Positions 2,222-32,407 of a stretch of DNA of 64,000 bases are shown piece after piece. The stretch lies in IMG/VR virus record IMGVR_UViG_3300022928_001147, positions 17,495 to 81,494 of that record, one strand, 5' to 3'. This stretch comes from a virus. The notes beneath the pieces were generated by a model that was not told the DNA's origin, made no database searches, and saw nothing but the letters and a program-made list of their open reading frames with translations. Each line of letters begins with the position of its first letter. Within the stretch, counting starts at the first letter, position 1. A program made the position numbers and the translations under genes.

Positions 2222-2250
2222 ATATTAACACAGTTAACAATATTTGTCAA
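2222..2250 (-). promoter_or_regulatory. Sigma70-like promoter for tctC
   Basis: On the minus strand, a perfect TTGACA (2245-2250) and TAATAT (2222-2227) are separated by 17 nt. The -35 box touches the last codons of the oxygenase gene upstream. The predicted start gives a leader of about 25 nt holding the AGGAG site. The spacer contains TTAACTGTGT, which also occurs in the promoter at 63904-63932. Confidence 0.75.
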
Positions 2251-2954
2251 CCATGTTCGTCATCGTCTAGTACCCAATTGTGACCGTCTTGTGGATTTCC
2301 TTTAATAACAGGATAATTGTCCTTTGCTAACGGAACTTCAAACGGGGCAATTCGATCAAACACTTCTTGATCTGTTAAGTACGATGTCATGCAGATATGA
2401 TATCGATCATATCCGCTGCCGTTAATAGCAGTATGTGCAATACGAGTATCAATAAAATAGTTGTCACCTGTTAACGGTGTATGCAAACTGTGATTTACAT
2501 TATGTGCAGGAAACACCCACATATTCATTGTATTTGTAATAATAGGAAGATGGAACTTATAGTCAATGTCTCGATGTATTCGAAAACAATGTTTAGGTTT
2601 AAGTTTAAATATCCTTGTACGAATATACGGCACTGGAGATTCTTCTAACAGCTCTTCAAAGATTGTATTTTGAAACATGGGAGTTGTTTTTATAAAATCT
2701 GCTTCAATGCGAGGATTGTCAGTGCGATCTTTGTGTAAGCTCGGCGTTGGGCCGCACCCGCTGTGATATACATTCACATCTGGTTTATCAAAATCATCAG
2801 GATGCGCTTGTATAGCAAACTGATCTTGAAAGCCGATAGTAAACCATCCCGCTTCTTCAATTTGCGGAATCATAGCATCCATTGCTTCCTTTAAATGTTT
2901 AGGATTTTTTCCTGTACTAAATCGCTTTACATATTTTGTTATAGGTTCTTGCAT
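2247..2954 (-). CDS. 2OG-Fe(II) oxygenase, aspartyl/asparaginyl beta-hydroxylase-like
   Basis: A 235-residue protein with the double-stranded beta-helix signature: iron ligands H-x-D in FRIHRDIDYKFHLPI, then N and W in the following strand, and the distal H in TRIAHTAINGS followed by the 2-oxoglutarate-binding R in DRYHI. This arrangement is that of aspartyl/asparaginyl beta-hydroxylases and phage relatives, which hydroxylate protein side chains or small molecules. The start chosen (2954) forms TAATG with the stop of the upstream oxygenase and sits 9 nt from AAGGA; an ATG two codons earlier is too close to that site. It is the last gene of the accessory array before tctC. The substrate is unknown; a fibre protein or glycan is a guess from context. 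Confidence 0.78.
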   Translation of the reverse strand: MQEPITKYVKRFSTGKNPKHLKEAMDAMIPQIEEAGWFTIGFQDQFAIQAHPDDFDKPDVNVYHSGCGPTPSLHKDRTDNPRIEADFIKTTPMFQNTIFEELLEESPVPYIRTRIFKLKPKHCFRIHRDIDYKFHLPIITNTMNMWVFPAHNVNHSLHTPLTGDNYFIDTRIAHTAINGSGYDRYHICMTSYLTDQEVFDRIAPFEVPLAKDNYPVIKGNPQDGHNWVLDDDEHG

Positions 2955-3517
2955 TACCATATATCCTTATTTGCACTTAGTTGAAATGCTGTTCTAACTC
3001 CTGTAACATTTTCAACGCCGTGTAGTATAAGTGTATTTAATGCTACCCACGTATTAGTAGGAAACTTTATGGTTTCAACTACGTCTAGATTACTAAAATC
3101 GTTTGCATGAACTTGACGACCTCTTACTAAATCTTTTCCATGTTCTTGGTACCATACTGTTTTAGCATCTTCGCCGCCTGGATCTAACAAGTACATTATA
3201 GCAATATCTCGTTTAATATCAGTGTGAGGTGCTAGGTACGGTCCACGGTCTCCGTCACAAAATCGAATACCACAATCAAATGCTTCAGGATGAATATTTT
3301 CATGGCACCAATTTGTAAAATCTTCATTAAGTGCTTGATAGTAATGAAACGTAAATCCTACTTGTTTTCCATCTTTAAGTACAACACGATCTTCGTATTT
3401 TTTGTGCAATCCGTGTAAGTCTACACCCCAAGATTTTTCTTGTATATGTTTGTTTGCTAGATCAAAAAATCTATCTGGTGGTGTTGGTAGGTCTTCTAAA
3501 ATTTTATAAATCCACAT
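2954..3517 (-). CDS. 2OG-Fe(II) oxygenase, prolyl-hydroxylase-like
   Basis: A 187-residue protein with the 2OG-Fe(II) pattern LAPHTDIKRDIAIMYLL (H-x-D ligands), then a distal H in LHGVENV and R in VRTAFQL. It is not closely similar to the oxygenase downstream, so these are two different enzymes rather than a duplication. The start is set at 3517 because AGAGGA lies 6 nt upstream; the frame extends 11 codons further without a site. It overlaps the preceding radical SAM gene by 14 nt and the next oxygenase by TAATG, so the three are probably translated together. Likely function: hydroxylation of a protein or sugar substrate in the modification pathway. Confidence 0.75.
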   Translation of the reverse strand: MWIYKILEDLPTPPDRFFDLANKHIQEKSWGVDLHGLHKKYEDRVVLKDGKQVGFTFHYYQALNEDFTNWCHENIHPEAFDCGIRFCDGDRGPYLAPHTDIKRDIAIMYLLDPGGEDAKTVWYQEHGKDLVRGRQVHANDFSNLDVVETIKFPTNTWVALNTLILHGVENVTGVRTAFQLSANKDIW

Positions 3518-4628
3518 TAATTTTCCTCTTGGGTATTTTGCTGTCTGCACTGCTTACACAACTATTTGTTATACAAGGCATTGGAGAATCAAATAGTTTA
3601 AACCCTGTTTCGATATTGCCAAGAGGAACATCATGACATGAATATGATCGCTTAACGCTGCCGTCCGGCTCTCGTATTATAATACCACTGTATCCAGCAT
3701 TACAACTCCAACCTTTAAAATTGTTAAAGTTGAACGCATTAAATCGTTCCGCTTGATCCATGTACCATTTTTCGCCTTTTGAGTCTTTTAACTCAACTTG
3801 CATATGCCACGGTACGCTAGCATCATTTTTTCCCATAATATCTTTAGGTACTTGAAATGTTGGCTTAGGCCTATCTGCCCACTTACGCTTACTTTCTGTG
3901 TACGCACGTTGTGGCATACCGTTATGCAAACGTTTTAAATTTTCTTCCGTGTAACCATCAACCACGCGGCTCGCAGTAGGATCTGATTGCGGCTTAAGAG
4001 TAACATTGATTCCTTGTTCGTGAAAGAACAATGCGTTTTCCCAGTCTCTTTCAAACCAGTCCGGAACCATAACCATATTAATCGTAACTTGTACATCGTG
4101 CTCCTGACAGAAGATTAACTTGTCTGCAAAGTCTTGCATCTTCTCACGTGTATTTAAATGTTCTGTATGTAGACTTGCTGTAATGCTTGCACGATGGAAT
4201 GGTTTAACTGCTTCTACGTATTCTTCAAACCAACTCATTGATCGACTACAGTTTGATGTCATATGAACACTTGTATAGTTAGTATTGTCAACATCATCAG
4301 CAAGATGTTTTAGTATGTCCAAGTATCCAGGATGGAAAGTAGGCTCTCCTCCCGACAAGGAGAAGTGGAAAGAGTTGAAGCCGTTGTCTCTGGCTTGACG
4401 TTTGATTTCATCCACTGTACGCAAGCAGAGCTCGGTAGGACGGTGGTCTTTACGATCGCTTCTCGCATATGGCCAACAGTAGGAGCAACGGTAGTTGCAG
4501 AATCTTCCAAGTAACCACGATACAGTAAAAAGATCGCGATAAAGCAGAGTACGTTGACCCACACTGACAATGTCATCAAAGGGAATCTTAGTAAAATCGT
4601 AGTTGCTCCATTTTAAATCTTCATTCAT
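3504..4628 (-). CDS. Radical SAM protein with C-terminal SPASM-like cysteines (CSYC type)
   Basis: 374 residues. CNYRCSYC (C44, C48, C51) binds the 4Fe-4S cluster that cleaves S-adenosylmethionine, SGGEPTFHP is the GGE motif, and MTSNCSRS is the TNG-like strand. The tail has Cys 309, 331, 352 and 357 in GWSCNAGY, YSCHDVP and PCITNSC, resembling a SPASM/twitch auxiliary-cluster region. Related copies are at 10564-11607 and 26158-27057. No Shine-Dalgarno is visible. A sigma70-type promoter places the predicted transcription start at or next to the ATG, so the message may be leaderless. Enzymes with SPASM regions usually modify peptides or proteins; the substrate here is unknown. Confidence 0.85.
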   Translation of the reverse strand: MNEDLKWSNYDFTKIPFDDIVSVGQRTLLYRDLFTVSWLLGRFCNYRCSYCWPYARSDRKDHRPTELCLRTVDEIKRQARDNGFNSFHFSLSGGEPTFHPGYLDILKHLADDVDNTNYTSVHMTSNCSRSMSWFEEYVEAVKPFHRASITASLHTEHLNTREKMQDFADKLIFCQEHDVQVTINMVMVPDWFERDWENALFFHEQGINVTLKPQSDPTASRVVDGYTEENLKRLHNGMPQRAYTESKRKWADRPKPTFQVPKDIMGKNDASVPWHMQVELKDSKGEKWYMDQAERFNAFNFNNFKGWSCNAGYSGIIIREPDGSVKRSYSCHDVPLGNIETGFKLFDSPMPCITNSCVSSADSKIPKRKINVDL

Positions 4629-4633
4629 AACTT

Positions 4634-4662
4634 ATAATAACATCATTATTATTAATTGTCAA
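4634..4662 (-). promoter_or_regulatory. Sigma70-like promoter immediately before a radical SAM start codon
   Basis: Minus strand TTGACA (4657-4662), a 17-nt spacer and TATTAT (4634-4639, one mismatch to TATAAT). The predicted start falls at about 4627-4628, the ATG of the gene it serves. The -35 box overlaps the end of the nitroreductase gene. Confidence 0.7.
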
Positions 4663-5324
4663 ATAATAATTCTTCGTTGTCCTATTTTGTCATAAGTGTT
4701 GCTAGTGTTAATTCCATCAGTGTGTAATGTGTGTGTGTCGTACAAGGGATATCCTATTCCTAACATTAACAGCAAATTGTATCTATTTAATTTATGTGCC
4801 TTAAGTACCTTTTTAGGAAATGCGTCTTCCCAAAAACACTTACAAAAACCAGACTTTAATCCTAAACTATTTGCAGCTATTGCTATTGCCCCTGCAGATA
4901 ATCCAACTTCTAAGGATGTTAGCACTCTATACGAACCTTTAGATAATGCGTTTCCATGATCTCTATAAAATTTAGTACTACTATCTCTATCTTCTTCTCT
5001 CATAAAAAATAAAAATAGTATATTAGAGTTAGTTTGAGGATTTTGCATTCTTCCTTGTTTTATAGCACTGCTGAGACTCTTAGATATTTGAGAAAGTTCA
5101 TCGTCACTATTCCGTGCTGCGTTAGCAAATTGTTGTATAACATCTCTATCTTTAATACATACAATATCAAAACTATTCAAGTTTTGTTTGGTAGGTGTAT
5201 TATAACCAACATCTATGAGCCAATTAATAGTTTCAAGATCTATTTCTTTAGAGAGGTCCCAATTGCGTTGACAACGCTGACTACTATTTACAGCAGATAA
5301 AAACTCATCCTGATCTAAACTCAT
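4659..5324 (-). CDS. Nitroreductase-family FMN-dependent oxidoreductase
   Basis: 221 residues with the nitroreductase layout: an N-terminal RNWDLSKEID helix, a YNTPTKQNLNSFDIV segment (the usual S/TPS..N...W.F FMN phosphate-binding region), EVGLSAGAIAIAANSLGLKSGFC for the dimer and FMN helix, and LLMLGIGYPL near the C-terminus. The family transfers hydride from NAD(P)H to nitro groups, quinones, flavins or dehydrogenated peptide rings. AGGAGA lies 8 nt before the ATG. It is the only clear flavoenzyme in the array and could supply reducing power or reduce an intermediate of the pathway. The exact substrate cannot be inferred. Confidence 0.75.
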   Translation of the reverse strand: MSLDQDEFLSAVNSSQRCQRNWDLSKEIDLETINWLIDVGYNTPTKQNLNSFDIVCIKDRDVIQQFANAARNSDDELSQISKSLSSAIKQGRMQNPQTNSNILFLFFMREEDRDSSTKFYRDHGNALSKGSYRVLTSLEVGLSAGAIAIAANSLGLKSGFCKCFWEDAFPKKVLKAHKLNRYNLLLMLGIGYPLYDTHTLHTDGINTSNTYDKIGQRRIII

Positions 5325-5334: not shown

Positions 5335-6099
5335 CTATTGTGTTTTACAATTAACCATTTTTAAATATATTTCCGCAAATGTAGCATGTGCAGATTTTCC
5401 GGGATGTAATAAGTCCCTTGCAGTTGCGTCGTTTACTACTGTTTTTTCTGTCTCTGTATCATTAAGATCTAGAACATACAATGGAATATTATTACTCTGA
5501 CATAAAAATTTAATAGCATCTAAATTTCTAAGTTTATTTATATATGCTTCTTCTCTAGTAAAGAATCCAGATATAATATCTCTATGAGAAAAAACGCTGC
5601 TATTAGCTTTAACTTGAGACCATTGTTTACAGTAATAAAGTTCTCGCCTATCACTAAGGGGAAGCAAAAGGAACACTCTTTTTATATTTGCAAAGTTAAT
5701 AAATCCTTTTAATACTCTATAACAAGTTTCGGGGCCGGCGCCTGGCACACCTAAGTTATAAAGTTTATAATCATTTAATTTTTTATTAACCAATGTCGGC
5801 CATATATCTTTATAATTAACTTCTTCGCCTAATGTATAACTACAGCCTATGTATGCATTACATTCATCACCTTTAACAAAATCTTTATTTGATCTATATC
5901 CAAAGTTATTAAGTTTGTATGTTATACTATCTTCTTGCCAGTCTTTCATCTCGTTAGGTCTAGAAAGTTTGTTTTCATTAAACAGCTCGCGCTGATTTTT
6001 AAATAAAAAGTTAACTTCTTTTTTATAAAATACAGAAGAAACTATTGTATTTTGTCTTAATAAATCGTAGTCAAATGTATGTTCGTTAGGTAATATCAT
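5335..6099 (-). CDS. SGNH/GDSL-like hydrolase
   Basis: 254 residues. Block I carries the nucleophile in YIGCSYTLGEE, block II is NLGVPGAGPE, and the C-terminal block has the Asp/His pair in ARDLLHPGKSAHATF. This is the SGNH esterase/acyltransferase pattern; known members remove or move acetyl or acyl groups on sugars, peptidoglycan or lipids. There is no signal peptide, so it should act in the cytoplasm, in keeping with a glycan-tailoring role during assembly. It overlaps the upstream radical SAM gene by ATGA. A second SGNH protein of different sequence is at 13084-13692. Confidence 0.75.
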   Translation of the reverse strand: MILPNEHTFDYDLLRQNTIVSSVFYKKEVNFLFKNQRELFNENKLSRPNEMKDWQEDSITYKLNNFGYRSNKDFVKGDECNAYIGCSYTLGEEVNYKDIWPTLVNKKLNDYKLYNLGVPGAGPETCYRVLKGFINFANIKRVFLLLPLSDRRELYYCKQWSQVKANSSVFSHRDIISGFFTREEAYINKLRNLDAIKFLCQSNNIPLYVLDLNDTETEKTVVNDATARDLLHPGKSAHATFAEIYLKMVNCKTQ

Positions 6100-7160
6100 T
6101 TTATTTCCTGCAAATGCGGTATTAGTTCTTTTAATTGTTGATTTCGCATATTATCTAATTCATAAGTGTATTTGTAGAATTTATCTAATAGCAAAGGATC
6201 AAATTTAGTTTGTATTATCTTTGACAATCTACTATTTTTCATAATTTCTAGTACATAGTCTTTGGCAGATTCTGATAATATATTTATTGCTAGAAAACTA
6301 GGTCGGACAACTAAATTTGTACTCCAGGTGCAGTTGTGTTCATTAGCAAACTCTGTTAATTTATAATACTGGTGTATGTTATAATTTTGCAAAGTAGTGT
6401 GTAATACAATTTTATTACTAATATGTTTTTTAAAAATGTTTAAATTTTCTACAAAGGTTTCCCAACTAGAGTTTCTTATGTAAGTGTATACTTCTTCAAT
6501 TCCGTCAAAACTTAGCACAAGATTAAATTCTTTAAATTTACTAACTTTATTGATCCAACGGGGTATGCGAGTGCCGTTACTTACTACTTCTATTGAAATT
6601 TTATTAGCGTTGGGTAATTCAAGTAATTGCTCTATAAAATATTCTGTGCGAGGCATTATAAAAGGCTCGCCTCCTTTTAATTCTATAAAAAATTCTTTAT
6701 TGCTAGCACGAATAAAAGATAATATTTTTTCTATATCTTCTTTTGATAATTCATGCACTGCGGTTCTTGCTGTTTGAAAATGTATACCTTTAGCTGCTAG
6801 TATCTTTGCTTCAGGTATCCAGCTGGTACTGTTTCCAGGTGTACACATTCTACAATTTAGATTGCAGTGATTACCGCAGTTAATATCTAACCTAAATTGA
6901 TTAGAAGTTATCCATTCGTCATAACTGTCTCGGCGACTAGTACCGTTAGTTTCTTCGTGTGTTTTGCATAAAGAACAATTAGAATGCCACTGTGTTTGCA
7001 TAGTAGTTATAATATCTTTATGTTGTGCTAACTCAAACACATCTTCTAGTCTTTCTAGCTCGCTCACATGAATTAGTTTGTCTGCACTTTGACAACAGAT
7101 ACGAACAAACCCTTGCGGGTCTATTTGTATATTTTGTGTAAGTGCTTTACATGATATCAT
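6096..7160 (-). CDS. Radical SAM protein with N-terminal twitch-like cysteine domain
   Basis: 354 residues. The N-terminal region has C4, the pair C22-C23 (VRICCQS) and C62/C65 (SNCSLC), the pattern of N-terminal twitch radical SAM proteins. The radical SAM core starts at CNLNCRMC (C99, C103, C106), with the conserved NSTSW soon after and KGGEPF as the GGE motif. The tail LDNMRNQQLKELIP matches a C-terminal signature shared by most paralogs here (D..R..N....hP). ATGA overlaps couple it to both neighbours. The twitch cysteines probably hold an auxiliary iron-sulfur cluster, as in peptide-modifying enzymes. The substrate is unknown. Confidence 0.85.
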   Translation of the reverse strand: MISCKALTQNIQIDPQGFVRICCQSADKLIHVSELERLEDVFELAQHKDIITTMQTQWHSNCSLCKTHEETNGTSRRDSYDEWITSNQFRLDINCGNHCNLNCRMCTPGNSTSWIPEAKILAAKGIHFQTARTAVHELSKEDIEKILSFIRASNKEFFIELKGGEPFIMPRTEYFIEQLLELPNANKISIEVVSNGTRIPRWINKVSKFKEFNLVLSFDGIEEVYTYIRNSSWETFVENLNIFKKHISNKIVLHTTLQNYNIHQYYKLTEFANEHNCTWSTNLVVRPSFLAINILSESAKDYVLEIMKNSRLSKIIQTKFDPLLLDKFYKYTYELDNMRNQQLKELIPHLQEIK

Positions 7161-8323
7161 TGTTTAAATATAGGAAATGTTGCAATTAAATTTTCATTGC
7201 GTGATTTGTCTAATGCAGTGTGATGCTGCCAAAACTTATCCCATAACTCCTTAGTGTATTCATCTTGTTTTACAAATGCTAGTATACTACTGATGCAACT
7301 GTAGTCATACTTATCTAACTTATTAACAACTTTATTTTTTAAATCTGTTGGAAGTACACTTGCACTTAGATGTTCTGGATAGCGAACAAATGTAATTTCA
7401 GTTTCAATGCCCATACTATCAAACCATTCTAATGCTTCAGGTATGTAATATACATTAGTGTTTTGTACTGTAATTTTAGCAACAATACGAATGTTAGGAT
7501 ATTTTTTAAGTTGTAATATATTGTCTTGTATTTGCTGCCATTTACTACCGCAGCGAATATAATCGTTTTGTTCCTTGTTCCCGTCAAGACTTACTGCAAG
7601 TTTTACTGCTTTAAATTTACTCCAGTAATCTAATACGTTATATTTTTTAAATTTTAACATGCTTAAATTAGTAGCATAACTTAAAAATATTTCGTCTGCT
7701 CTGTCAATTACTTTATCTAGAACCATATAATGTTTTTCGTCAAATAACGGCTCGCCACCTGCGAAATTTAATTCTAACACTTCAGTTAGATCAAGCCCTT
7801 CTATAAATGCATCTTCATAGCCTAAATAAGGTTTTTTAGTAAGACCGAGATTGACTATATGTTCTTGCCAGTCTATAGGTTGCAAGTCACTAATCTTGTC
7901 CCATTCTTTAAACCAACTGGTACTATCATGAACGCTGCACATACGGCAAGCAAAGTTGCACAAGTTGCTTAGTTTAAGTTCAAGCCATTTTACTCCTGTT
8001 GACAAACTGCCGTCTGGCGACATTATAGAAACTGCATGCTCATATTCGTCGAGCATTTTCTTACTTCGTTTGTTAAGATATTTTTGTCTTAAACTATCTA
8101 CCCCTGCATCTTCGTCTTTATAACATACTTCACAATGCTTATTTCTGATGCCGTTAACCATATCGAGCCGTACTTGTTTTATAGTATCACAATTCCAAGC
8201 CTCTGTTAATGACATAGAGTTAGTATTTCCGATTCTAGGAAGACTACGACAACACAGTTTTATACTGCCGTCAGTCTTAGTACTTTGATGTACAAACGGT
8301 GCAGGACAGATAGTTTTACTCAT
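7157..8323 (-). CDS. Radical SAM protein with N-terminal twitch-like cysteine domain
   Basis: 388 residues. The N-terminal region has C6 (ICPAPFVHQST), C24-C25 (IKLCCRS) and C64/C67 (CEVC). Radical SAM CNFACRMC is C122, C126, C129, followed by DSTSWFKEW, FAGGEPLFDEKHY and AVSLDG. The tail LDKSRNENLIATFP carries the shared C-terminal signature. It belongs to the same family as the genes at 11597, 14533, 15833, 17110, 18377 and 19506 but is clearly diverged, so the paralogs probably have different substrates or positions of attack. ATGA overlaps link it to both neighbours. Confidence 0.86.
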   Translation of the reverse strand: MSKTICPAPFVHQSTKTDGSIKLCCRSLPRIGNTNSMSLTEAWNCDTIKQVRLDMVNGIRNKHCEVCYKDEDAGVDSLRQKYLNKRSKKMLDEYEHAVSIMSPDGSLSTGVKWLELKLSNLCNFACRMCSVHDSTSWFKEWDKISDLQPIDWQEHIVNLGLTKKPYLGYEDAFIEGLDLTEVLELNFAGGEPLFDEKHYMVLDKVIDRADEIFLSYATNLSMLKFKKYNVLDYWSKFKAVKLAVSLDGNKEQNDYIRCGSKWQQIQDNILQLKKYPNIRIVAKITVQNTNVYYIPEALEWFDSMGIETEITFVRYPEHLSASVLPTDLKNKVVNKLDKYDYSCISSILAFVKQDEYTKELWDKFWQHHTALDKSRNENLIATFPIFKQ

Positions 8324-8916
8324 GTGTTCTCCATATACAATTGCTTGTTTTTAGGACGCAAAGGATCATTCTCGTTCCATCTATCACTTACTCGTAATTT
8401 AAATGTTATTCCATAAGTTTTAGCTAATGCTTGTGCTGCTTCTATTTGATGTTCATTAAAACTAAAAGGTATAAATTGCCAAACAATATCTTTGCCTAAT
8501 ATTGCACCTAATTTCATTGCTGCCATACTGCTATCAAAGTCTATATTTTTTCTATACATATGTGCAGTATTTTTCAGGCCATCTACGCCAAATACAACTT
8601 TACCATGTGTATAACTATTATAAAATTCTTTCCACCAGTCTAATTTTTTACCACTTCCATTAGTTGCCATAATAAAAAATACATTTTGTGTGTCAAAGAA
8701 TTTTATTATATCAATCAACTTTGGATGATATATCGGATCTCCTAGATTGCCGCTTAACAATACTTTTTTATAATTACCAGACTGAATAACTGTTTTGATA
8801 ACATCAACAGGTAAATCAGTTATTTGTATATTGCCTTTAAGATCTGTGCGCGGACACTTAGGACATTCTAACAAACATCTACGTGTTAATTCAAAATGCA
8901 CTTTTTCACTATACAT
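8320..8916 (-). CDS. Radical SAM core protein, half of a split rSAM/SPASM enzyme
   Basis: 198 residues holding only the catalytic half: CLLECPKC (C14, C18, C21), SGNLGDPIYHP in place of GGEP, MATNGSG and FGVDGLKNTAHMYR. The full-length relatives at 21582-22619 and 22619-23683 continue into a C-terminal SPASM region; this protein stops at LRPKNKQLYMENT, where that region would begin. The missing half is the separate gene just upstream (8909-9205). The ATG at 8916 is chosen; it overlaps the SPASM gene by ATGTATAG and has AAAGG about 10 nt upstream, while a TTG three codons earlier is less likely. The two products presumably associate. Confidence 0.78.
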   Translation of the reverse strand: MYSEKVHFELTRRCLLECPKCPRTDLKGNIQITDLPVDVIKTVIQSGNYKKVLLSGNLGDPIYHPKLIDIIKFFDTQNVFFIMATNGSGKKLDWWKEFYNSYTHGKVVFGVDGLKNTAHMYRKNIDFDSSMAAMKLGAILGKDIVWQFIPFSFNEHQIEAAQALAKTYGITFKLRVSDRWNENDPLRPKNKQLYMENT

Positions 8917-9205
8917 CTTCGACAACCTTTGTTAACGGATTCTTTAAATTATCTGCAATTGCTCCGCAATGTGTTTTACAAGTAGGTCCAGCAGATTCAG
9001 GATTAGCTATTAAATTGTCTATCCAGTTTTTTAAATGTACATTAACAATTTCATCATAGGGCGTTTTTGTTATATCAAATTTATCACATTCAAACTGTTG
9101 ATATTCGTTACGCTCAGGCCTATCACTGAGAAAACAACAAGGACGCACATGCCCTGTTGCAGTAATAAACTGATCTTTCCCTCTTGCACATTTAGGATAA
9201 ATCAT
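8909..9205 (-). CDS. Stand-alone SPASM-like domain, partner of the adjacent radical SAM core
   Basis: 98 residues with six cysteines: C6 (YPKCARG), the pair in VRPCCFL, one in FECDKF, and THC/C in PTCKTHCG. The block from YPKCARG through GHVRPCCFL aligns with the C-terminal SPASM region of the gene at 21582-22619 (IECFSRE...GNVWPCCFL), and the final CKTHCG with its RCSQTC end. This is thus the auxiliary-cluster domain of an rSAM/SPASM enzyme encoded alone and translated before its catalytic half, the reverse of the fused order. It overlaps the methyltransferase stop by ATGA. Confidence 0.7.
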   Translation of the reverse strand: MIYPKCARGKDQFITATGHVRPCCFLSDRPERNEYQQFECDKFDITKTPYDEIVNVHLKNWIDNLIANPESAGPTCKTHCGAIADNLKNPLTKVVEDV

Positions 9206-9828
9206 TGTTTCTCCAATATAAAAAACAAATTTTCAGGATATTCAGTAAGTTTGAAATTATAATTTTTAGCAAATTCTTTCACAGCAATTTCAAGTTCGGG
9301 CCAATCCTTGTTTTTATAGTCGTCGCCACATATAACTTTCGTATCTTTAAAATATTCTAAAACTTTTTTTGTGTGTTCGTAGGTGTGTTCCGAATCGAGA
9401 TATATAGCATCATATGTCGAACAATACTTTTTATAAATGTACTGGTGTGTAGACATCGACGTAACATTAGATAACAATTTATATTTAGGATGATGCTCCA
9501 TTACAAAATTCCAGACTTCTTTATGAGACATATTTTTTAACATATTAACTATGTTCGACCAGATATCCAAATTTTTGCCAAATTTGGGCATTCTATCAGA
9601 ACGAACAAAATCAGGAATTTCTGATGCATCAACATTAAAGGAATCTAACACGTCGTATGTGGTATCGTCAGGCAAAACGTCTAACCACGCCCAAGTACTC
9701 CTTCCAAAAAGCACACCAATTTCTAAAAACTTTGCATTTTTAGGTAGTAGTTTTGCAACTTCTGCGTATCGCTGATGCTGATATATACTTGTAAATCCAG
9801 GGACTTGTCTTGCTTGAATTATTTCCAT
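9202..9828 (-). CDS. Class I SAM-dependent methyltransferase-like protein (tandem copy 1)
   Basis: 208 residues. FLEIGVLFGRSTWAWLD is methyltransferase motif I (E-x-G-x-x-x-G), YDVLDSFNV is the acidic second strand, YDAIYLDSEHTYEHT is the motif of the D/H type seen in sugar O-methyltransferases and TylF-like proteins, and KVICGDDY follows. It is clearly paralogous to the gene at 9941-10573 along the full length, with the same start (MEI..AR.VPGFTS) and end (NLFFILE.Q). A role in methylating a sugar or modified side chain is inferred from the family and setting. The start overlaps the mini-gene upstream. Confidence 0.75.
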   Translation of the reverse strand: MEIIQARQVPGFTSIYQHQRYAEVAKLLPKNAKFLEIGVLFGRSTWAWLDVLPDDTTYDVLDSFNVDASEIPDFVRSDRMPKFGKNLDIWSNIVNMLKNMSHKEVWNFVMEHHPKYKLLSNVTSMSTHQYIYKKYCSTYDAIYLDSEHTYEHTKKVLEYFKDTKVICGDDYKNKDWPELEIAVKEFAKNYNFKLTEYPENLFFILEKQ

Positions 9829-9944
9829 TTAGTAGTCCTCACGTCACTATCAGCTCCGCCGCTTAAACGAATTCCTATTCCTTTATGCTGTGCAGCATCT
9901 AAAGGAATATTAATAGTAGAATTATTATAACGATACACAGTCAT
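9819..9944 (-). pseudogene. Collapsed mini-gene: PP-loop ATPase head fused to radical SAM tail
   Basis: A 41-codon frame that keeps the array's coupling: its ATG overlaps the upstream methyltransferase stop (ATGA) and its TAA overlaps the next methyltransferase start. Residues 24-34 (GIRLSGGADSD) contain the ATP-binding SGG.DS loop, comparable to VRLSGGFDSAV of the intact PP-loop gene at 13791-14546. The last eight residues, DVRTTKWK, match the end DVRATKWR of the radical SAM gene at 10564-11607, and the DNA there matches too. The simplest reading is an in-frame deletion that joined the beginning of one gene to the end of another. Nothing catalytic remains. Confidence 0.7.
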
Positions 9945-13692: not shown

Positions 13693-13696
13693 AAAT

Positions 13697-20698: not shown

Positions 20699-20706
20699 TA
20701 TTTATA
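20699..20706 (-). promoter_or_regulatory. T4-type late promoter TATAAATA
   Basis: An exact TATAAATA on the minus strand. With T4 spacing (start about 13 nt from the first T) transcription would begin at about 20693, the A of the ATG of the radical SAM gene. It lies in the short divergent gap before the plus-strand PLP-enzyme gene. Confidence 0.55.
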
Positions 20707-20732
20707 TGCGTAGTTTATATATAAGTAGTATT

Positions 20733-25275: not shown

Positions 25276-25750
25276 TATTTCATCATGGATTATAGATCGA
25301 CTGTCTGTTTCTCTTCCTACTTTTAATAACATGCCTGCTTGCCCATTTGCAAAGCAGGCATTATTAAGAAATCGAGTTAAAATTATTCAGCTTGATAATA
25401 AACATGATTTTGAAGCGCAGTTAGATAAATTAACAACTATGTGGCCTGAAGATATCGAAGTAGTAGTATTAGGCACGGCTCCAAATAACATTTCTTCAGA
25501 AGAATTAACAGAACTCACTGAAACAGCAAATTCTACATTTCTTAAACAAAGAGGGTATCTTGCATTAGAAGATCATCCTCAAGAATTAGAATATGTTGAA
25601 GACTTTTGTGTAAATGAAGGAAACTGGGCTCTTATATTATTGCAAGCAAGCTCTAAGATAACCGAAGCTCGAGAAGTGTTATCGAGTCGCGGATATTACA
25701 AGAATTGGGACGACGACTATTACAAGCAAGTTGTTTTAGAGAGGGCCTAA
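25265..25750 (+). CDS. Protein of unknown function following the amidinotransferase
   Basis: 161 residues from the ATG at 25265, which overlaps the amidinotransferase stop; the frame is open 11 codons further upstream, but that start would lie deep inside the other gene. An N-terminal MPACPFAKQALL segment has a single cysteine, followed by an alternating strand/helix pattern (VKIIQLD, IEVVVLGTAPN, LALEDHPQELEYVEDF, WALILLQASSKI). I do not recognise the family. The fixed position after the amidinotransferase suggests a partner in the same step. It runs tail-to-tail into the ATE-like gene with a 15-nt overlap. Confidence 0.6.
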   Translation: MESDISSWIIDRLSVSLPTFNNMPACPFAKQALLRNRVKIIQLDNKHDFEAQLDKLTTMWPEDIEVVVLGTAPNNISSEELTELTETANSTFLKQRGYLALEDHPQELEYVEDFCVNEGNWALILLQASSKITEAREVLSSRGYYKNWDDDYYKQVVLERA

Positions 25751-26161
25751 TTCTTCATACCCTTGTATCATTGTCTTATAGTGTGCAACCTCTCCTAAGT
25801 ACAAGTATTCAACTCCCTTACTCTTGTAATATGCACATTCATGTTCTATACTTTTAATACCTAAATATAAATTCGGATTATGATAGGTCCAAGCAAATTG
25901 ATAGTCTTCTACATGTTTATCATTGTATATTCCAATCATGTTAAATGCTACTAATTCATTATTATCGTAATAGGCAATAATATCATTATTAAAATATTCT
26001 TTGTCGAAAATAGGCATAACACTCTCAAAGTTTTTATATTGACAGTATTTTTTATAGATGTTATTAAGCTGAACAACATCAATTTCATCTTTGCTTAAAA
26101 GTTTTGCGTTAGGCAAAAGGCTATAAGATGTTTCTTTTAAATTTATTCTACAGTATTTCAT
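25736..26161 (-). CDS. ATE1/Bpt-like GNAT-fold acyltransferase
   Basis: 141 residues. The second half, AWTYHNPNLYLGIKSIEHE followed by AYYKSKGVEYLYLGEV and YKTMIQGYEELGPL, has the shape of the C-terminal GNAT domain of arginyl/leucyl-tRNA protein transferases (LG..SI...I..AK..G..Y.YLGY....Y K..F.P.E). The N-terminal cysteine-rich domain of ATE1/Bpt is absent. Such domains transfer an amino acid from aminoacyl-tRNA, or an acyl group, to an amine. It is coupled by ATGA to the upstream radical SAM gene, so the pair may act in sequence. Confidence 0.6.
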   Translation of the reverse strand: MKYCRINLKETSYSLLPNAKLLSKDEIDVVQLNNIYKKYCQYKNFESVMPIFDKEYFNNDIIAYYDNNELVAFNMIGIYNDKHVEDYQFAWTYHNPNLYLGIKSIEHECAYYKSKGVEYLYLGEVAHYKTMIQGYEELGPL

Positions 26162-27057
26162 TTATTTGTTTTGTAAATTTGAACATCTGTTCCACAAACA
26201 CAAGATGTTTTAGTGCAAATTTCAGGCGCAGTAGGTAATTTATAAGTCGAGTATATATTTCCATATGGTTTTACAATTTTACAAGTTGCTCCGTAAATGT
26301 TTCCATTTGGTTCAATATTTAAATTGTCTAATCCCATATTACATTTCCATCCAAAATAATTATTTGAACTGTTTATTAAATGTTCGCTTGTTGTTGTTTT
26401 TTCTCCATCGACAAGGAAATCGTATCTAATAATAGATCTAATTTTAGATCGCGAAAACTTGATTTTAGCAAACTCTAACATTTCCGTAGTATAAGTAGGC
26501 AATATGCCAGTTCCATTGTGCCAGTCAGCTATCAGTTTTATTCTAACATTTATAAGCAATTTAGATTCTAATAATCTATTATAAAACTTTTTAATTTTTT
26601 CAAATTGACTCGGTGGCATCATTAGTACACATGAAATTCTGTACCGTGTATGGAGTTCTTCAAATACTTCTATAAAATGATCTTCGCTTGCAGTTTCTGT
26701 ATGAAAACTAAATCCTAATTCGTCAATAGGAGCATTAAATTTTTTCCAATAGTTTAAAGTACGACTACCGTTAGTAGTAAAAATAATTGCAGTAGGTTGC
26801 TTACTTGAGTTTACAAGATCATCACAAAACTCATGCAGTTTAGGCCATAGTGTAGGTTCGCCGCCCATAATATCAAATATTAACGGACGATATTTTCTAA
26901 ATTCATTAGACAAGTTTAAAAGAGAAGTATAATCTTCTGTCCATCTATACTTTCCGTTGTAATGGTACTCTGTGCAATAACTACAAGAATAATTACAAAC
27001 TGTAGTGCAAGTGTAAGTAATACGCTTCCATTGAGGAATTATCTTAAGTTCATTCAT
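26158..27057 (-). CDS. Radical SAM protein with C-terminal SPASM-like cysteines (CSYC type)
   Basis: 299 residues. CNYSCSYC (C21, C25, C28) in TTVCNYSCSYCTEYHYNG, IMGGEPTLWPK, FTTNGSRT and FSFHTETASEDH. The tail has GWKCNMGLDN, GATCKIVKPYGN, EICTKTSCVCGTD. It is close in layout to the genes at 3504-4628 and 10564-11607, and is the shortest of the three. Eight-nucleotide overlap with the small gene upstream and ATGA with the acyltransferase downstream. Confidence 0.85.
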   Translation of the reverse strand: MNELKIIPQWKRITYTCTTVCNYSCSYCTEYHYNGKYRWTEDYTSLLNLSNEFRKYRPLIFDIMGGEPTLWPKLHEFCDDLVNSSKQPTAIIFTTNGSRTLNYWKKFNAPIDELGFSFHTETASEDHFIEVFEELHTRYRISCVLMMPPSQFEKIKKFYNRLLESKLLINVRIKLIADWHNGTGILPTYTTEMLEFAKIKFSRSKIRSIIRYDFLVDGEKTTTSEHLINSSNNYFGWKCNMGLDNLNIEPNGNIYGATCKIVKPYGNIYSTYKLPTAPEICTKTSCVCGTDVQIYKTNK

Positions 27058-27274
27058 CGAGTATTAACTTTATGTCTTTTCCTGGTCCAGTTTTGCTAGG
27101 CAAGTCACCGTATTGATCTACATACCAGCTAATAACAGCTTTGTACCAGTTTTGACTATTATGGTGTGCTTGTTTATTAAACTGCCAAATATTATTGTTT
27201 GTAGCTTGCATTGTACTTAGCGCTCTTGCACTTTCCTTTTGCAATTCTCGAAGTGTTAAATTACTTGTATCCAA
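27050..27274 (-). CDS. Small protein of unknown function (TTG start)
   Basis: 74 residues, mostly helical, with WQFNKQAHHNSQNWYKAVISWYV in the centre and an acidic end DIKLILDE. The only usable start is TTG at 27274, overlapping the preceding large gene by 14 nt; AGAGG lies 11 nt upstream. It has no cysteines or membrane segments and I do not recognise it. Its place between a glycosyltransferase fusion and a radical SAM gene, with overlaps on both sides, supports a real gene, possibly a carrier or adaptor, but that is a guess. Confidence 0.5.
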   Translation of the reverse strand: MDTSNLTLRELQKESARALSTMQATNNNIWQFNKQAHHNSQNWYKAVISWYVDQYGDLPSKTGPGKDIKLILDE

Positions 27275-29870
27275 TTAACATAAACCTCTTATATTTTTCA
27301 AGTTGTAATTCTCCAGAATATAACAAGTTAGTCATAGGTGCTATACTGTTAAATTCTTCAATGTCTTTAACACAGTTTACGTGTTCTTCTATTTCATAAT
27401 AATTATTACTTTGTAGTATAACTAGCTTACCAGACGGTATCATATTATACCATTCTACAAATTTTTCAATATGTTCGCAGCTTGTGTTGATAATAGTATC
27501 TGGGCTATCTTTTAATTCTTCAATACTACCATTACTTTTAACTGTATTATAGATATGTCTGCTGTAATCGATATCCATAATATCTTTAGTCTGTGCTTTA
27601 AATTTCCAGTTATCTAATACTAGCAGTTTATTAAATGTTTCTGCAATAGTCCAGACAGTAGGATCAATGTCAAAACTGCGAACAGAGTTGAATTTAATAT
27701 TGTTTTCTACAAACATTGGGATAATTGTTGCATACCAACCGGCGCAAAGATATATAAGACCTAAGTCTAAATCTAAGTCATTTAATGTATCAGTTAACCA
27801 TTTTTTACTTAACAGTTGACCTCTACTTAAACAGTCTTTATCAAAGTTAGGAACTGTTTCGTACAACGTTTTTAATGGTTTTACAAATAAACTGTTAGTA
27901 TGGTTATCTAAAACTTTCCACAATGAATTTATATCATTGTTAAGAAGTTTAAACTCAGACGACACTTCCGGTAATAATCTTGCAAGACTATATAAATTTT
28001 TCTCAAGTACTGCTTTACGTAAGTCGTCATCTGCATTTACTAATCTAAAAATGCTATGTAAATTTTCCTCAAGTACTGCTTTTCTAAGTTCTTCATTATT
28101 TGCTAATTTAAAAATACTAGACAAATCTTTATCATTATACATACGGCGTACATTTGAAATGTCACCTTCGTATAATAATTCAAATCTATCTAATAAGTCT
28201 ATTATGTCGTTGTTAGCAGTAGTTGATTCTATGGGAGTTATGTTAGTTTCGTTATCAAGTAGCTGCGATGATTGTTTAAATTGCTCTTCTAGCCATTCAA
28301 AGTCATTTATTTTTTTAAGAGCTTCAATGTCACCTTGACTTTCTCTTCCGTAAGCAGTTCCTGCTGTTGCTCCCTTAATAGCCCATTCTCCGTAAGGACG
28401 CTCTTTTCCAACTGTTTGCCACACATGTAATCTTTTTTCTGTTTCTTCATTCTTTTGTCTGTCAATTACTTTACTGCTTAATTTAGCACATTCTCTAAAT
28501 GCACTACGCCAAGTACTAAACTCGTCTGTATTAAATGCTGTGATGTTGCTTACAACTTTAATAGGTTTAAAATGACGACTAATACTTGTAGTCATATCAG
28601 GCTTACTTATATCCATGTTAATAGTTAGTGTCCTTGGAAGAAGTTTAATTCCGCCGTAGCCGTATTCTAAATCATTAATCGGATTTTTACTACGCCAAAC
28701 TTTCACATATTCTTTTTCATCTACAGGACTTACGTAATCAAAATTAAAGTCGTCTGTTATTTGTGCATCACCGTCTACAATCCAGATCATTTCTGTAGTA
28801 CATATCTTTGCAGCTTCAATATGTGCCTGATGAATTCCCTTTACTCCGTCGACACGTTTTGCTCGAGGAAATTTTTCTTTTAAGGCATTATAATTTTCCT
28901 CTGCGTTGGACTCGTTATATGTTATCATTACAATATCATATTCTTTTGTAGCTTCAATTTCGGACTTTAAAAAGTCTTGAACGACCCTGACTGGAGGAAT
29001 ATACATACTCTTAAAGAATTTACTATGACTAGGAAGATACGGATCAATTGGAATATCTATACCTAATTCGTTATTAAGCAATGTGCCTAAACGAGAAATT
29101 TCTTGCGGAAGCATTTCTTCAGTAATTTTAGAATACTTATCTTCCCACATCTTATTAAGATATTCAAAGTCACGTACATTGACAAAGTCCCAATCAGTAC
29201 AGTTAGTTAAATAACAACCTTCACGAGCACCATAAATTGCCCATAGACCGTTCTCAACATCTGTTCCAATTGTTTGCCAAATTTTAAGTCGTTCAAAATT
29301 TTTCTTATGCACACGTTTCGTAAATTCTTGTCCTGAAAGTTTTTCGCCCTCGTAAAGACTCATCTTTACACCTTCGCGAAATCCTGCTCTCCAAGCCTGC
29401 CACGGTGTTGCATTATTATACACAGAACTATATGTTTTGTTAACTTGTAAATATTGTAAATCCCAACAAAAGTCAACTTGTGATTGAGGGTTTGATGATT
29501 CTGCATTTTCATGTGTTTTCATGTTTAAAACAATGTGCTTCGGCCAACATTTAATTCCGCCGTTGCCGTATGTTAATCCATTTACAACATTATATCCGCT
29601 CCAGCTAATTACACAATTTTCTACATCAACATCGTCTCTAAAATGCAACTCTTCATTAATAAAGTTTTGGTGTACAATATTGTCACCGTCTATAGTAATA
29701 AATCGATCAGTTTCACTTAGATTTGCACAAGCCTTATGTGCAGCGTCACTACCTTCTACACCATGTACACGTTTTGCCCAGGGCACTTTAGTAAGCAAGT
29801 CAGCATAATTTTTTTCAGCGTTTGGTTCATCGTAACTCAAATATATAATATCGTAATCAATAATTTTCAT
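27261..29870 (-). CDS. Two-domain glycosyltransferase-like protein fused to a methyltransferase-like domain
   Basis: 869 residues. Two tandem copies of one domain lie at about 1-290 and 305-545: each starts with YDI.....E.NAE.NY..L....P.AKRV.GV, has a DGD motif (FITIDGDN, WIVDGDAQ), a GY.....YG.GGIK segment and a WQT.G....G.WAI.GA end. DGD suits a metal and nucleotide-sugar site, so they are probably GT-A-type glycosyltransferases. A helical linker with ELRKAVLEENL-type repeats follows (about 570-660). The C-terminus (about 690-869) resembles a Rossmann methyltransferase: LGLIYLCAGWYA, FDIDP, then INTSCEHIEKF and KLVILQSNNY. GGAG lies 6 nt before the ATG. Confidence 0.7.
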   Translation of the reverse strand: MKIIDYDIIYLSYDEPNAEKNYADLLTKVPWAKRVHGVEGSDAAHKACANLSETDRFITIDGDNIVHQNFINEELHFRDDVDVENCVISWSGYNVVNGLTYGNGGIKCWPKHIVLNMKTHENAESSNPQSQVDFCWDLQYLQVNKTYSSVYNNATPWQAWRAGFREGVKMSLYEGEKLSGQEFTKRVHKKNFERLKIWQTIGTDVENGLWAIYGAREGCYLTNCTDWDFVNVRDFEYLNKMWEDKYSKITEEMLPQEISRLGTLLNNELGIDIPIDPYLPSHSKFFKSMYIPPVRVVQDFLKSEIEATKEYDIVMITYNESNAEENYNALKEKFPRAKRVDGVKGIHQAHIEAAKICTTEMIWIVDGDAQITDDFNFDYVSPVDEKEYVKVWRSKNPINDLEYGYGGIKLLPRTLTINMDISKPDMTTSISRHFKPIKVVSNITAFNTDEFSTWRSAFRECAKLSSKVIDRQKNEETEKRLHVWQTVGKERPYGEWAIKGATAGTAYGRESQGDIEALKKINDFEWLEEQFKQSSQLLDNETNITPIESTTANNDIIDLLDRFELLYEGDISNVRRMYNDKDLSSIFKLANNEELRKAVLEENLHSIFRLVNADDDLRKAVLEKNLYSLARLLPEVSSEFKLLNNDINSLWKVLDNHTNSLFVKPLKTLYETVPNFDKDCLSRGQLLSKKWLTDTLNDLDLDLGLIYLCAGWYATIIPMFVENNIKFNSVRSFDIDPTVWTIAETFNKLLVLDNWKFKAQTKDIMDIDYSRHIYNTVKSNGSIEELKDSPDTIINTSCEHIEKFVEWYNMIPSGKLVILQSNNYYEIEEHVNCVKDIEEFNSIAPMTNLLYSGELQLEKYKRFMLIGYK

Positions 29871-29873
29871 GCA

Positions 29874-30428
29874 TTACTCCTGTACATTATGTATGTGTTT
29901 AACATGATGAGAGTTACATAAAAGGCTTACAGACATTTTACTGACTTCTTTATTATAACTTTTTAATTTAAGTTCGTTGTGTAATACAACTAATTTTAAA
30001 TCAACACTTAACGTATCTAGCAATATAAATCTATTAGTAGGATCAACTACGTAATAAGTTTTTATAGTGTTATTGCTTTGTGCAAATAAAGAACACAACT
30101 CAGAGTCCATAGTATTAGTAATTGTCCAGCTACCATTAGATAAATCTTGATTTATAATTATTGCGTTTTCAGCAGTAGATTGTTTAGCAATAATTCCTTT
30201 AGGTTGAGTTATGTCTAAAGATAAATCTAAATCTCTTGGAACAATTTGTTTTTTACCTTTTATTTTTATATTATCAATTACAATGTAATCAAAAAATTGT
30301 TTTGTTAAGTTAGAAAATTCTTCATAAGTTTTTAAATCAACTTCAAAATAATTGGGGCCGAACGAATTATCAATTATATTAGTAACCGAAAGGACGCTTC
30401 CACTATCATCGTAATACATGTAAAACAT
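29874..30428 (-). CDS. Protein of unknown function in the glycosyltransferase segment
   Basis: 184 residues beginning MFYMYYDDSGSVLSVTN. The sequence alternates strands (YIVIDNIKIKGK, SWTITNTM, KLVVLHNELKLKS) with no recognisable enzyme motif. Marine T4-like phages often carry similar beta-rich hypothetical proteins near fibre genes, but I cannot name this one. The start forms TAATG with the glycosyltransferase upstream and GGAG lies 10 nt before it, so the longer frame beginning seven codons earlier is less likely. Confidence 0.6.
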   Translation of the reverse strand: MFYMYYDDSGSVLSVTNIIDNSFGPNYFEVDLKTYEEFSNLTKQFFDYIVIDNIKIKGKKQIVPRDLDLSLDITQPKGIIAKQSTAENAIIINQDLSNGSWTITNTMDSELCSLFAQSNNTIKTYYVVDPTNRFILLDTLSVDLKLVVLHNELKLKSYNKEVSKMSVSLLCNSHHVKHIHNVQE

Positions 30429-31222
30429 TAAACACGCTCCTCTAACCATTTTAACATTTCTAAAGTTAAAAACTCATCTTCTACATAATGTAATACACCT
30501 GATTGTTTAAAACCGTTAATGTAAATATTATCTCCAAAATCAACTGATAGATCATTAGTCCATTTCGAAGGCACTGGTTCTATATTTTGTACATGCGGCT
30601 TCATGTGTGTAAATATTAAATTACTAGTATAATCAATATCTAAAATCTTTAATGCAATAGCTGCACTAACATCAACACTATTCCACGCTTGCATGCTTAA
30701 AGGAGTATACGTTTTATAAAATACTTCCCAATTATTCATTATTACTTCTAGTAAATTAAAAAATGCTGTTGTATTGCTAGACTTTTTAAATTGATACATG
30801 CCAGTATATATGTTTGGTAAATTATTATCGTCAAAAGTCTTTCGATAGTATCTACTTGTTACTGTAGTATTTCGGTATGTATTAACTGTTGTTGTAAATG
30901 CAAGTTCATTTGTAGAAAAATTAATAGGATCTAATACTAACATATCTGCATCAAATACTGTAGTATTACTATACGGAGTTAATTGAGATAACTTCCACCT
31001 GTTATCAATTTTCCAATTTTTATTTTCCGCTAAATCAACACCAGGTATAGATATAACTTGATCAAACACATTTTTATATTTTGACGATATTTTATCGTTG
31101 GTTATAATACTAATGTTTGTGTTAGGAGAATGTGAAAGAACACTAAGTGCTAATGCATACGCCTGTTCTACATAATTTGTAGTATCATTGTTTTGTGCAA
31201 GTACGCATATTCCATTACTCAT
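30428..31222 (-). CDS. Glycosyltransferase-like protein with DxD motif
   Basis: 264 residues. It starts NGICVLAQNND followed by YVEQAYALALSVL, the Rossmann-like nucleotide-sugar fold of GT8-type enzymes, with VFDADMLVLDP as the DxD metal site. The ATG at 31222 is chosen because GGAG lies 7 nt upstream. It has the same architecture as the next gene (31215-32063), so the two are diverged paralogs. It probably transfers a sugar in the cytoplasm; placement next to fibre genes suggests that fibre or appendage proteins are glycosylated. Confidence 0.65.
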   Translation of the reverse strand: MSNGICVLAQNNDTTNYVEQAYALALSVLSHSPNTNISIITNDKISSKYKNVFDQVISIPGVDLAENKNWKIDNRWKLSQLTPYSNTTVFDADMLVLDPINFSTNELAFTTTVNTYRNTTVTSRYYRKTFDDNNLPNIYTGMYQFKKSSNTTAFFNLLEVIMNNWEVFYKTYTPLSMQAWNSVDVSAAIALKILDIDYTSNLIFTHMKPHVQNIEPVPSKWTNDLSVDFGDNIYINGFKQSGVLHYVEDEFLTLEMLKWLEERV

Positions 31223-32063
31223 GTGTAAACTCCTTATCAATAAAAGAGTTTAAACTAAATTTATTCATTACATGCACTGTTGCATCAGTAAGTTTTACTG
31301 GAATGTAATCATACGACTTATGTGCTAAGAGTTTAATAACATTATTATCGACGTTTACTAATACATCTTGATCAGTTGAAACCCACATATCACTAGGTAA
31401 TTGTTTAGGCCACTCAGTGCTATTTTCAAATCCTCGCATCATATGTACTGCAATACTAAATGCAAAATCATTTCTAAATTTAGTCTCAGTTATATCATAC
31501 ACTGTTCTATAATAATTATAGTTATCTTTAATATGACTCACTAAATCAAATACTGTTTTTGCTGCGTTACTTTTTGTAAAATATAATATAGTAGCCCAGT
31601 ACATAGAAATAGATCTATTACTCACTCTATCAAAACTAGGTTCAACTCCTTGATTAATTAGATTATAATGATTAGCAATCATAAAATCTTCAGCAGTATC
31701 AAAGCATGATAATAGTTTGTTATTTGAGATTAATAAATCCGTGTCGATTACAATTGTTTTATCAAAAGCACTTAACGCATATGCACTATTGCGCGAAGAA
31801 TTTTTCCATTCTAACCGTTTACTAGAATATAGTCCATCGTTAAATGTTTTGGTTGCATTATTAGAAGGAGCAGGAACATACGTTACAATATCAATATAAT
31901 TTTTATAAAAAGGATATGCAGATTCAATGTAATCAACTGCATCTGTAATTAATTGTACTGGAAGGTTTAAATATTGTTTTACACGCTTTGCACAATATAT
32001 TGCTTGTTTTACATAATCAATATTTTTATTATTAAACGCAAAGAGTACTACGCCGTTGGTCAT
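31215..32063 (-). CDS. Glycosyltransferase-like protein with DxD motif
   Basis: 282 residues. GVVLFAFNNKNIDYVKQA at the start, a TKTFNDGLYSSKRLEW segment, and TIVIDTDLLISN as the DxD metal site. Similar in layout to the gene at 30428-31222 (NGhhhhA.NN...DYV.QA; h.D.DhLh). ATGA overlap with the small upstream gene. A GT8-like activity is inferred from the fold pattern; donor and acceptor are unknown. Confidence 0.65.
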   Translation of the reverse strand: MTNGVVLFAFNNKNIDYVKQAIYCAKRVKQYLNLPVQLITDAVDYIESAYPFYKNYIDIVTYVPAPSNNATKTFNDGLYSSKRLEWKNSSRNSAYALSAFDKTIVIDTDLLISNNKLLSCFDTAEDFMIANHYNLINQGVEPSFDRVSNRSISMYWATILYFTKSNAAKTVFDLVSHIKDNYNYYRTVYDITETKFRNDFAFSIAVHMMRGFENSTEWPKQLPSDMWVSTDQDVLVNVDNNVIKLLAHKSYDYIPVKLTDATVHVMNKFSLNSFIDKEFTHE

Positions 32064-32407
32064 AAGTCAACTAATCCTTGAACAGACTTATTCTTTCTAA
32101 TTGTTTCATAATCAGTGGCGTACTTGTGCGATGCAGATGTGTATACACTTAGTAATTCTTTTACAAATTCATCAATGTTGCTTATAACAAAAGGAATGTC
32201 ATTATCGTCTAATACTACTAGACCTTCATCTTGTATCTCTGATAACAAATGACAAAAGTTAATTAATTCTCGAGTTACTGTAAACTTATGTCCATGAGTA
32301 TAATGTACAAGATTCTCCTTATACTGTGCAAGAAAAATACGTTTTTGATTGTTTTGTGTTTCTAAAAAGTTAGAAAACTCTAATGCTTTAGCTAATCGTT
32401 GGTCCAT
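32060..32407 (-). CDS. Small conserved-looking phage protein of unknown function
   Basis: 115 residues, mostly helical, starting MDQRLAKALEFSNFLETQNNQ, with YKENLVHYTHGHKFTVTRELINF and a central LVVLDDNDIPFVI strand pair. No enzymatic motif is visible. It is the first gene after the consensus sigma70 promoter at 32429-32457, has GGAG 5 nt before the ATG, and opens the accessory operon. It could be a regulator or a fibre-assembly helper; nothing in the sequence decides. Confidence 0.6.
   Translation of the reverse strand: MDQRLAKALEFSNFLETQNNQKRIFLAQYKENLVHYTHGHKFTVTRELINFCHLLSEIQDEGLVVLDDNDIPFVISNIDEFVKELLSVYTSASHKYATDYETIRKNKSVQGLVDL

Follow-up and report, generated by a model that had tools for sequence, protein, structure and literature searches.

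Gene content of the island

We analysed a window of 64,000 nucleotides (positions 17,495 to 81,494 of the 81,494-base virus record IMGVR_UViG_3300022928_001147). Positions 2247–32407 of the window hold an island of genes for radical S-adenosylmethionine enzymes (rSAMs) located next to tail-fibre genes. A preliminary description of this island had proposed a combinatorial pathway. In our analysis, a conserved core combined with rapidly exchanged accessory cassettes is the more fitting description, and we tentatively read the island as a glycan assembly pathway with exchangeable tailoring enzymes. All features are on the minus strand unless stated otherwise.

The tail-fibre genes fibA (32464), fibB (33422), fibC (34972) and fibD (36861, with a tail-collar domain) occupy 32464–38966; fibB and fibD matched tail fibre/tail collar families in PHROGs, and the gene order was kept in related contigs. 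Next to them is h115 (32060–32407), a small conserved protein with no family match, which in most contigs takes the same place between the fibre and glycosyltransferase (GT) genes. It is followed by the putative GT-A glycosyltransferases GT282 (31215–32063) and GT270 (30428–31240), recognised by motif only (IDTD, with no Pfam match, and DADM, respectively); the position of both is conserved, for GT282 in 23 contigs. GT869 (27261–29870) joins a pair of GT-A domains through helical repeats to a class I methyltransferase. The core protein h74 (27050–27274) has 74 amino acids and is 81–88% identical in relatives, with dN/dS of 0.04–0.13.

Among open reading frames (ORFs) of at least 150 amino acids we found the 14 CxxxCxxC rSAM cores noted in the preliminary description, and every one of them lies on the minus strand; in shuffled proteins the motif turned up 0.09 times on average and never more than twice. 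Start/stop overlaps are indeed common, with overlap at 21 of the 29 junctions of consecutive minus-strand genes. The proposed division into three classes held for eight N-twitch and three CSYC-type proteins; of the three SPASM-related proteins (8320, 21582 and 22619), however, 8320 lacks a cluster domain of its own.

The eight N-twitch proteins exceeded the cut-off of the NCBIfam model N_Twi_rSAM (NF033640; 170 bits, whole-protein score) with nearly full-length matches of 192–419 bits; the model provides a family name alone, without function or substrate. The core protein T3 (11597–13006) scored 419 bits, while T1 (6096) and T2 (7157), within 6096–8323, and T4–T8 (14533, 15833, 17110, 18377 and 19506), within 14533–20693, are accessory. 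The CSYC core and C-terminal cysteines were aligned in the core protein CSYCa (3504–4628; PF04055, E 8e-16) and in the accessory proteins CSYCb (10564–11610; PF04055) and CSYCc (26158–27057; PF04055, E 6e-8). Among the rSAM/SPASM proteins, SPB (22619–23683; PHROGs radical SAM, E 3e-19) belongs to the core, and the accessory SPA (21582–22619) matched both PF04055 and PF13186 over cut-off in a single chain. The third is a split pair (8320–9205) in which SPc (8320–8925) is the rSAM core alone (PF04055, 23.4 bits against a cut-off of 29.5) and SPn (8909–9205) holds SPASM-like cysteines, C-x11-G-x4-CC ... CxxxC (PF13186, 19.9 bits, below cut-off). Such a split core/cluster-domain pair recurs in both gene orders among G002, G026 and L016, and also in the cultured phage Mosig (L305, 14968–15931).

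Plus-strand genes split the array at 20706–21587 and 23754–25750. The first encodes an aminotransferase-like protein with a Lys-containing motif, no family or Pfam match, and relatives 62–65% identical in L020/L119. The second is a divergent accessory cassette of a DUF6614 protein (over cut-off), an amidinotransferase (24067–25275) and a 172-aa protein. The amidinotransferase, overlooked in the preliminary description, matches HsvA (E 2e-9), SxtG (E 5e-7, over the C-terminal part) and AGAT, and GGWHC is its C-terminal Cys motif. Extended by an ATE-like aminoacyl transferase (25736–26161; PF04377, 23.5 bits, under the cut-off of 25) and the CSYC rSAM, this cassette (23754–27057) recurs in the distant G010/L085, with 30–56% identity for the genes other than the rSAM.

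The remaining accessory genes encode two 2-oxoglutarate (2OG) oxygenase-like proteins (2247–3550; a weak Asp_Arg_Hydrox match for 2247, none for 2954), a nitroreductase (4659–5324; PF00881 over cut-off), an SGNH-like protein (5335–6099; motif only), two tandem Methyltransf_24 paralogues, 57% identical (9202–10573; PF13578 for 9202), an SGNH hydrolase (13084–13707; PF00657 marginally under cut-off) and a PP-loop-like protein (13791–14573; NAD_synthase, E 0.029). Of the accessory enzymes named earlier, the nitroreductase and one methyltransferase passed Pfam cut-offs, while the 2OG, SGNH, PP-loop and ATE assignments are sub-cut-off or motif-only.

Two minus-strand segments, 12999–13083 and 13697–13790, resemble the conserved N-twitch C-terminus and lie behind unrelated genes. 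Both beat 500 shuffles and are probably remnants of replaced N-twitch genes. The broader idea that such tails are systematic recombination scars was rejected, with just two clear orphans found across islands.

Conserved core and exchanged cassettes

The related contigs used for comparison are all fragments, selected partly because the island is present; some carry two ids and so are counted twice in the totals of loci or contigs. The genes form two tiers. The core genes T3, SPB, CSYCa and h74 have orthologues up to 87–91% identical and were detected at ≥50% identity in 28–53 loci or contigs. For T3, SPB and CSYCa, the highest identities elsewhere were 87%, 87% and 89–91%, with 53, 35 and 47 loci or contigs, respectively. 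The best relatives of the other eleven rSAMs were at 31–45%, T4 and T8 (55%) excepted, and T4–T8 span 34–55%. The core travels with two GT domains, helical repeats in variable number and a methyltransferase, which are fused here and usually encoded by separate genes. The dN/dS values of the core genes, about 0.04–0.13, are rough, as several dS values exceeded 1.

Sequence divergence was correlated among T3, SPB, CSYCa and the methyltransferase domain (Spearman rho 0.75–0.83) but not with GT282 (rho −0.03 to 0.06). In comparison with G002 the baseplate gene is only 38% identical, but T3 is 76% and CSYCa 81% identical; for G003 the values are 62% and 45%. Since gene and genome relationships conflict, we conclude that the core moves between phage lineages. 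Most of the island families (225 of 298) were seen in a single contig.

Origin of the array by local tandem duplication was considered and rejected. The rSAM paralogues of the window are at most ~33% identical to one another (BLAST), and each has closer relatives elsewhere; therefore, old lineages appear to have been gathered.

Domain architecture of GT869

The 869-aa protein had been described as a glycosyltransferase. This is correct for its two GT-A domains (amino acids 1–297 and 308–536), but the protein continues with helical repeats of ~22 amino acids and a class I methyltransferase (~650–869). In most relatives these parts are three separate genes, the first two of which frequently flank an N-twitch rSAM gene. 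The AlphaFold model (pLDDT 85) had chondroitin polymerase, a two-GT enzyme, as the best Foldseek match, followed by methyltransferases. The overall TM-scores were low because the matches cover single domains.

The repeat unit is 22–23 amino acids long. A strict motif counted 2 repeats in the window and 3, 5, 7, 8 and 12 in fused relatives. For example, G011 and G020 have 8 and 12 repeats despite being 91–94% identical in fibD, fibC and fibB and 84% in fibA.

Position of the island and the carrier phage

Starting from the baseplate gene, we compared gene order in the window, in 20 related contigs and in two phages with large genomes (records of 328 and 212 kb). All 23 showed the same order on one strand: a giant protein, h232, the fibres, h115 where present, GT282, GT270, GT1 and then rSAM genes. 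Thus the location next to fibre genes, claimed earlier for the window, holds for 23 of 23 contigs that reach the island, including the two distant large-genome phages, in a sample chosen for island presence; in none of the 23 does the fibre-side island lie away from the fibre genes. In contigs of sufficient length, the far end of the island is often a convergent second fibre-like gene. Four contigs with the baseplate gene gp6 had no N_Twi hits and, judging by length, seem to stop short of the island or close to it. A 4949-aa protein occupies the place of VrlC and had no match to the compared part of VrlC of Mosig. One large-genome phage, G001 (328-kb record, L036), had 21 matches to the N_Twi_rSAM model spread over many sites.

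The carrier is an uncultured aquatic T4-like phage, and the island, located where the baseplate and fibre genes end on their 3' side, corresponds to the hypervariable host-recognition region known from marine T4-like phages; late expression would be expected from gene position. The nearest annotated phages for the baseplate protein (54460–57945) are large T4-like phages at ~36% identity. Among annotated phages in the collection, GT869, GT282 and h115 had no matches, and T3 matched two Vibrio phages at 21% and nothing else. A host search with tctC gave no match at a strict cut-off across 289 genomes, with no positive control in place.

Several genes outside the island were noted as well. TRAP solute-binding DctP and TctC transporter genes are present at 207–2190, and a TctB-like membrane protein is encoded further upstream (L009, 15807–16229). 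Also upstream of the window (L009, 10874–15357), a second fibre-like gene is followed by accessory genes identified by eye as 2OG-, GNAT-, heme-oxygenase-like diiron- and AsnB-like. A folE gene and a QueE-like gene, the latter with an insertion that displaces the third core cysteine, lie at 2085–3923 of L009; their sequences suggest a possible 7-deazaguanine DNA modification in the phage.

Relatives in Bdellovibrionota

Among the sequenced genomes that a scan identified, the N-twitch family was found mainly in Bdellovibrionota, where parts of GT869 were present in 14 of 192 genomes. At the loci inspected, T3, SPB, CSYCa and GT/methyltransferase genes are situated amid ordinary chromosomal genes, e.g. 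seryl-tRNA synthetase (names assigned by eye). The core therefore serves a function outside phages as well. Small proteins whose C-terminal end combines basic residues with a DPxIY motif (L021, L028, L034, L092) were seen in phage islands and on one Bdellovibrionota chromosome.

Possible product of the island

A Pfam search of 147 otherwise unlabelled island proteins gave rSAM (9), Asp/Asn hydroxylase (7), TauD (5), B12-binding (5) and desaturase (4) families, and, in ones and twos, DegT aminotransferases, epimerases, RmlD, GDP-mannose dehydratase, UDP-glucose dehydrogenase, carbamoyltransferase and halogenase, among others. A hydropathy scan of 588 island proteins detected no flippase, polymerase or exporter. 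At least two membrane spans were predicted in 14 of the 588, nearly all desaturase-like by HRYxxH-type motifs.

Where the island lies, which genes and domains it contains, how they are conserved and that they are exchanged are observations; that a polymer forms, that the repeats act as a ruler and what each enzyme acts on are inferences. The proposed pathway may operate as follows. In the cytoplasm, the two GT modules would add sugars to a growing chain, and the helical repeats would serve as a ruler that sets the distance to the methyltransferase, whose fold is compatible with a role in capping the chain. The core rSAMs T3, SPB and CSYCa, with cassette enzymes, might oxidise, epimerise, amidinate or methylate the sugars. 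Cassettes swapped among phages (rSAM, 2OG, aminotransferase, amidinotransferase, methyltransferase and NDP-sugar enzymes) would decorate the product, and the acceptor of the chain would most likely be a virion protein, with the fibres as the foremost candidates. We give a probability of roughly 45% to this reading as a whole, i.e. a conserved glycan assembly core with swapped tailoring cassettes and probably a virion acceptor. That the pathway makes a glycan is somewhat better than an even bet. A virion protein falls a little short of even odds as the acceptor; among possible acceptors it still ranks first, and the fibres lead among virion proteins, given that the island lies behind the fibre genes and that the scan showed no exporter. 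The fullest version, in which the virion carries a phage-made, length-controlled and rSAM-tailored polysaccharide with chemistry reshuffled between strains by cassette exchange and a core common to Bdellovibrionota, is unlikely to be right in all its parts.

The putative assembly protein resembles polymerase-ruler-terminator systems of the WbdA/WbdD type (PMC3482155, PMC11231755) in having tandem GTs, followed by a long helical spacer and a methyltransferase as terminator, whether as a single chain or as several. On the other hand, no kinase and no ABC exporter were found in the GT869 system. With no dedicated exporter for a capped chain found among the 588 island proteins, GT869 may work like a WbdD-type system and is not counted as a member of it.

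Several observations weigh against the proposed pathway. Known rulers are coiled coils, unlike the tandem repeats of GT869, and in many relatives the methyltransferase is a gene of its own with few or no repeats, which speaks against a ruler. The dozen or so desaturase-like membrane proteins suggest that some products are lipids. The nearest solved folds to T3 (AlphaFold pLDDT 91) are the peptide-modifying rSAMs SkfB and CteB, at low TM-score, so the substrate may yet be a peptide. The two large-genome phages carry a second array, with a GT2-SPB-T3 core, distant from the baseplate gene, and no fibre genes accompany the chromosomal core in the Bdellovibrionota stretches examined. Since the core is common to fibre-less chromosomal loci and to phages with very different baseplate genes, a fibre protein is not the sole possible target.

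Co-variation between array content and fibre sequence, put forward as a check in the preliminary description, was not clearly borne out. The partial Mantel r was 0.10–0.19 (p 0.04–0.19), and after correction for backbone distance only one of eight tests fell below p 0.05. Fibres 71–85% identical to those of the window adjoin almost wholly different islands in G043 and G030; for G043, with fibres 71–82% identical, there are almost no common island families at 50% identity. Island content tracks fibre similarity hardly beyond shared ancestry.

Alternatively, the enzymes could rebuild the O-antigen or another surface glycan of the host during infection, using host exporters and blocking competing phages. 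The authors of the pelagimyophage study interpreted the GTs of such islands in this way (PMC7029224), NDP-sugar enzymes are present in the islands, and the same core on Bdellovibrionota chromosomes could plausibly make a cell-surface product. Still, the scan of 588 island proteins described above showed no flippase, polymerase or exporter, and the genes trail the structural operon instead of forming an early region. We consider host envelope remodelling rather doubtful.

It is less probable that the island makes a peptide natural product or peptide-derived cofactor, with the core rSAMs acting on a ribosomal peptide, for which h74 is the candidate, followed by glycosylation and methylation as in mycofactocin. 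The fold of T3, similar to SuiB and anSME besides SkfB and CteB, agrees with this, as does h74, which adjoins SPB and is conserved under purifying selection. However, in a search for conserved small ORFs as precursor peptides h74 was the sole fitting one; it is undetected in some clades, namely freshwater-type contigs and G002, both with the same core, and the vocabulary of the island is chiefly one of sugar and oxidative tailoring.

Even less can be said for a glycan-free modification of the fibre polypeptide, an option of the preliminary description in which rSAM, 2OG and ATE-like enzymes would introduce hydroxylations, cross-links or aminoacylations. The Asp_Arg_Hydrox family modifies protein side chains, and its relatives are frequent in the islands, which keep a fixed position behind the fibre genes; the missing clear co-variation of fibre and island, as well as the bacterial chromosomal core with no fibre genes nearby, makes this option improbable.

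A role in metabolic support (Fe-S/cofactor) or in making a small anti-defence molecule, for instance a viperin-type nucleotide, is very improbable: rSAM-rich T4-like phages were first discussed under Fe-S metabolism (PMC5332604) and weak viperin-profile matches exist, but both readings leave the GT linkage unexplained. Viperin identity itself was rejected, with scores of at most 40 bits against an NCBIfam cut-off of 180, similar scores in other rSAM families and weak PADLOC hits.

A conserved glycan assembly core with exchanged cassettes thus stays our preferred reading. Host-recognition islands of marine phages are large, common and unexplained, and the division into constant core and cassettes, along with the two-GT/methyltransferase protein, turns them into a concrete testable pathway. 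If virions do bear the product, phage surface variation would gain a new layer, and the islands would be a rich reserve of rSAM chemistry yet to be explored.

Comparison with known systems

The preliminary description knew of no characterised phage pathway with this gene set. This stands as far as characterisation is concerned, but such islands have already been described (PMC7029224, PMC5332604). The host recognition cluster of pelagimyophages is a hypervariable region in the structural part of the genome, where fibres, GTs and rSAM cassettes vary between relatives (PMC7029224). The island of the window is likewise fibre-linked and hypervariable, with constant GTs. It differs in having 14 rSAMs on a conserved core with the GT-GT-repeat-methyltransferase protein. 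The T4-like genome TARA_ERS488813_N000010 has 12 rSAM genes, reported in 2017 as Fe-S cluster proteins with no layout or pathway (PMC5332604). As an rSAM-rich genome of a T4-like marine phage it is similar to the carrier, a likeness drawn by description only. To our knowledge, no radical SAM enzymes have been reported in the glycosylation of mycobacteriophage virions. The virions of these phages carry glycans on capsid and tail proteins, according to Freeman et al. 2023 as cited in PMC12619734.

Within the literature searched, several elements are new: the core/accessory structure, the GT-GT-repeat-methyltransferase protein, whose repeats vary in number, the rSAM/SPASM pair divided over two genes, the lateral spread of the core, in which Bdellovibrionota take part, and the cassettes that tie the islands to a cultured phage. 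This phage is Pelagibacter phage Mosig EXVC030M (MT647606). In the 30 kb compared, no match to T3 or to the GT pair was found, and Mosig has three rSAM-like genes, including the split core/cluster-domain pair, compared to 14 in the window. As in the islands, it carries nitroreductases, DegT, a carbamoyltransferase and a relative of the GT869 methyltransferase, and it has cassettes in common with G026 (44–56% identity) and G025 (67–80%). With related cassettes in a cultured phage, the question of what the islands make is testable now.

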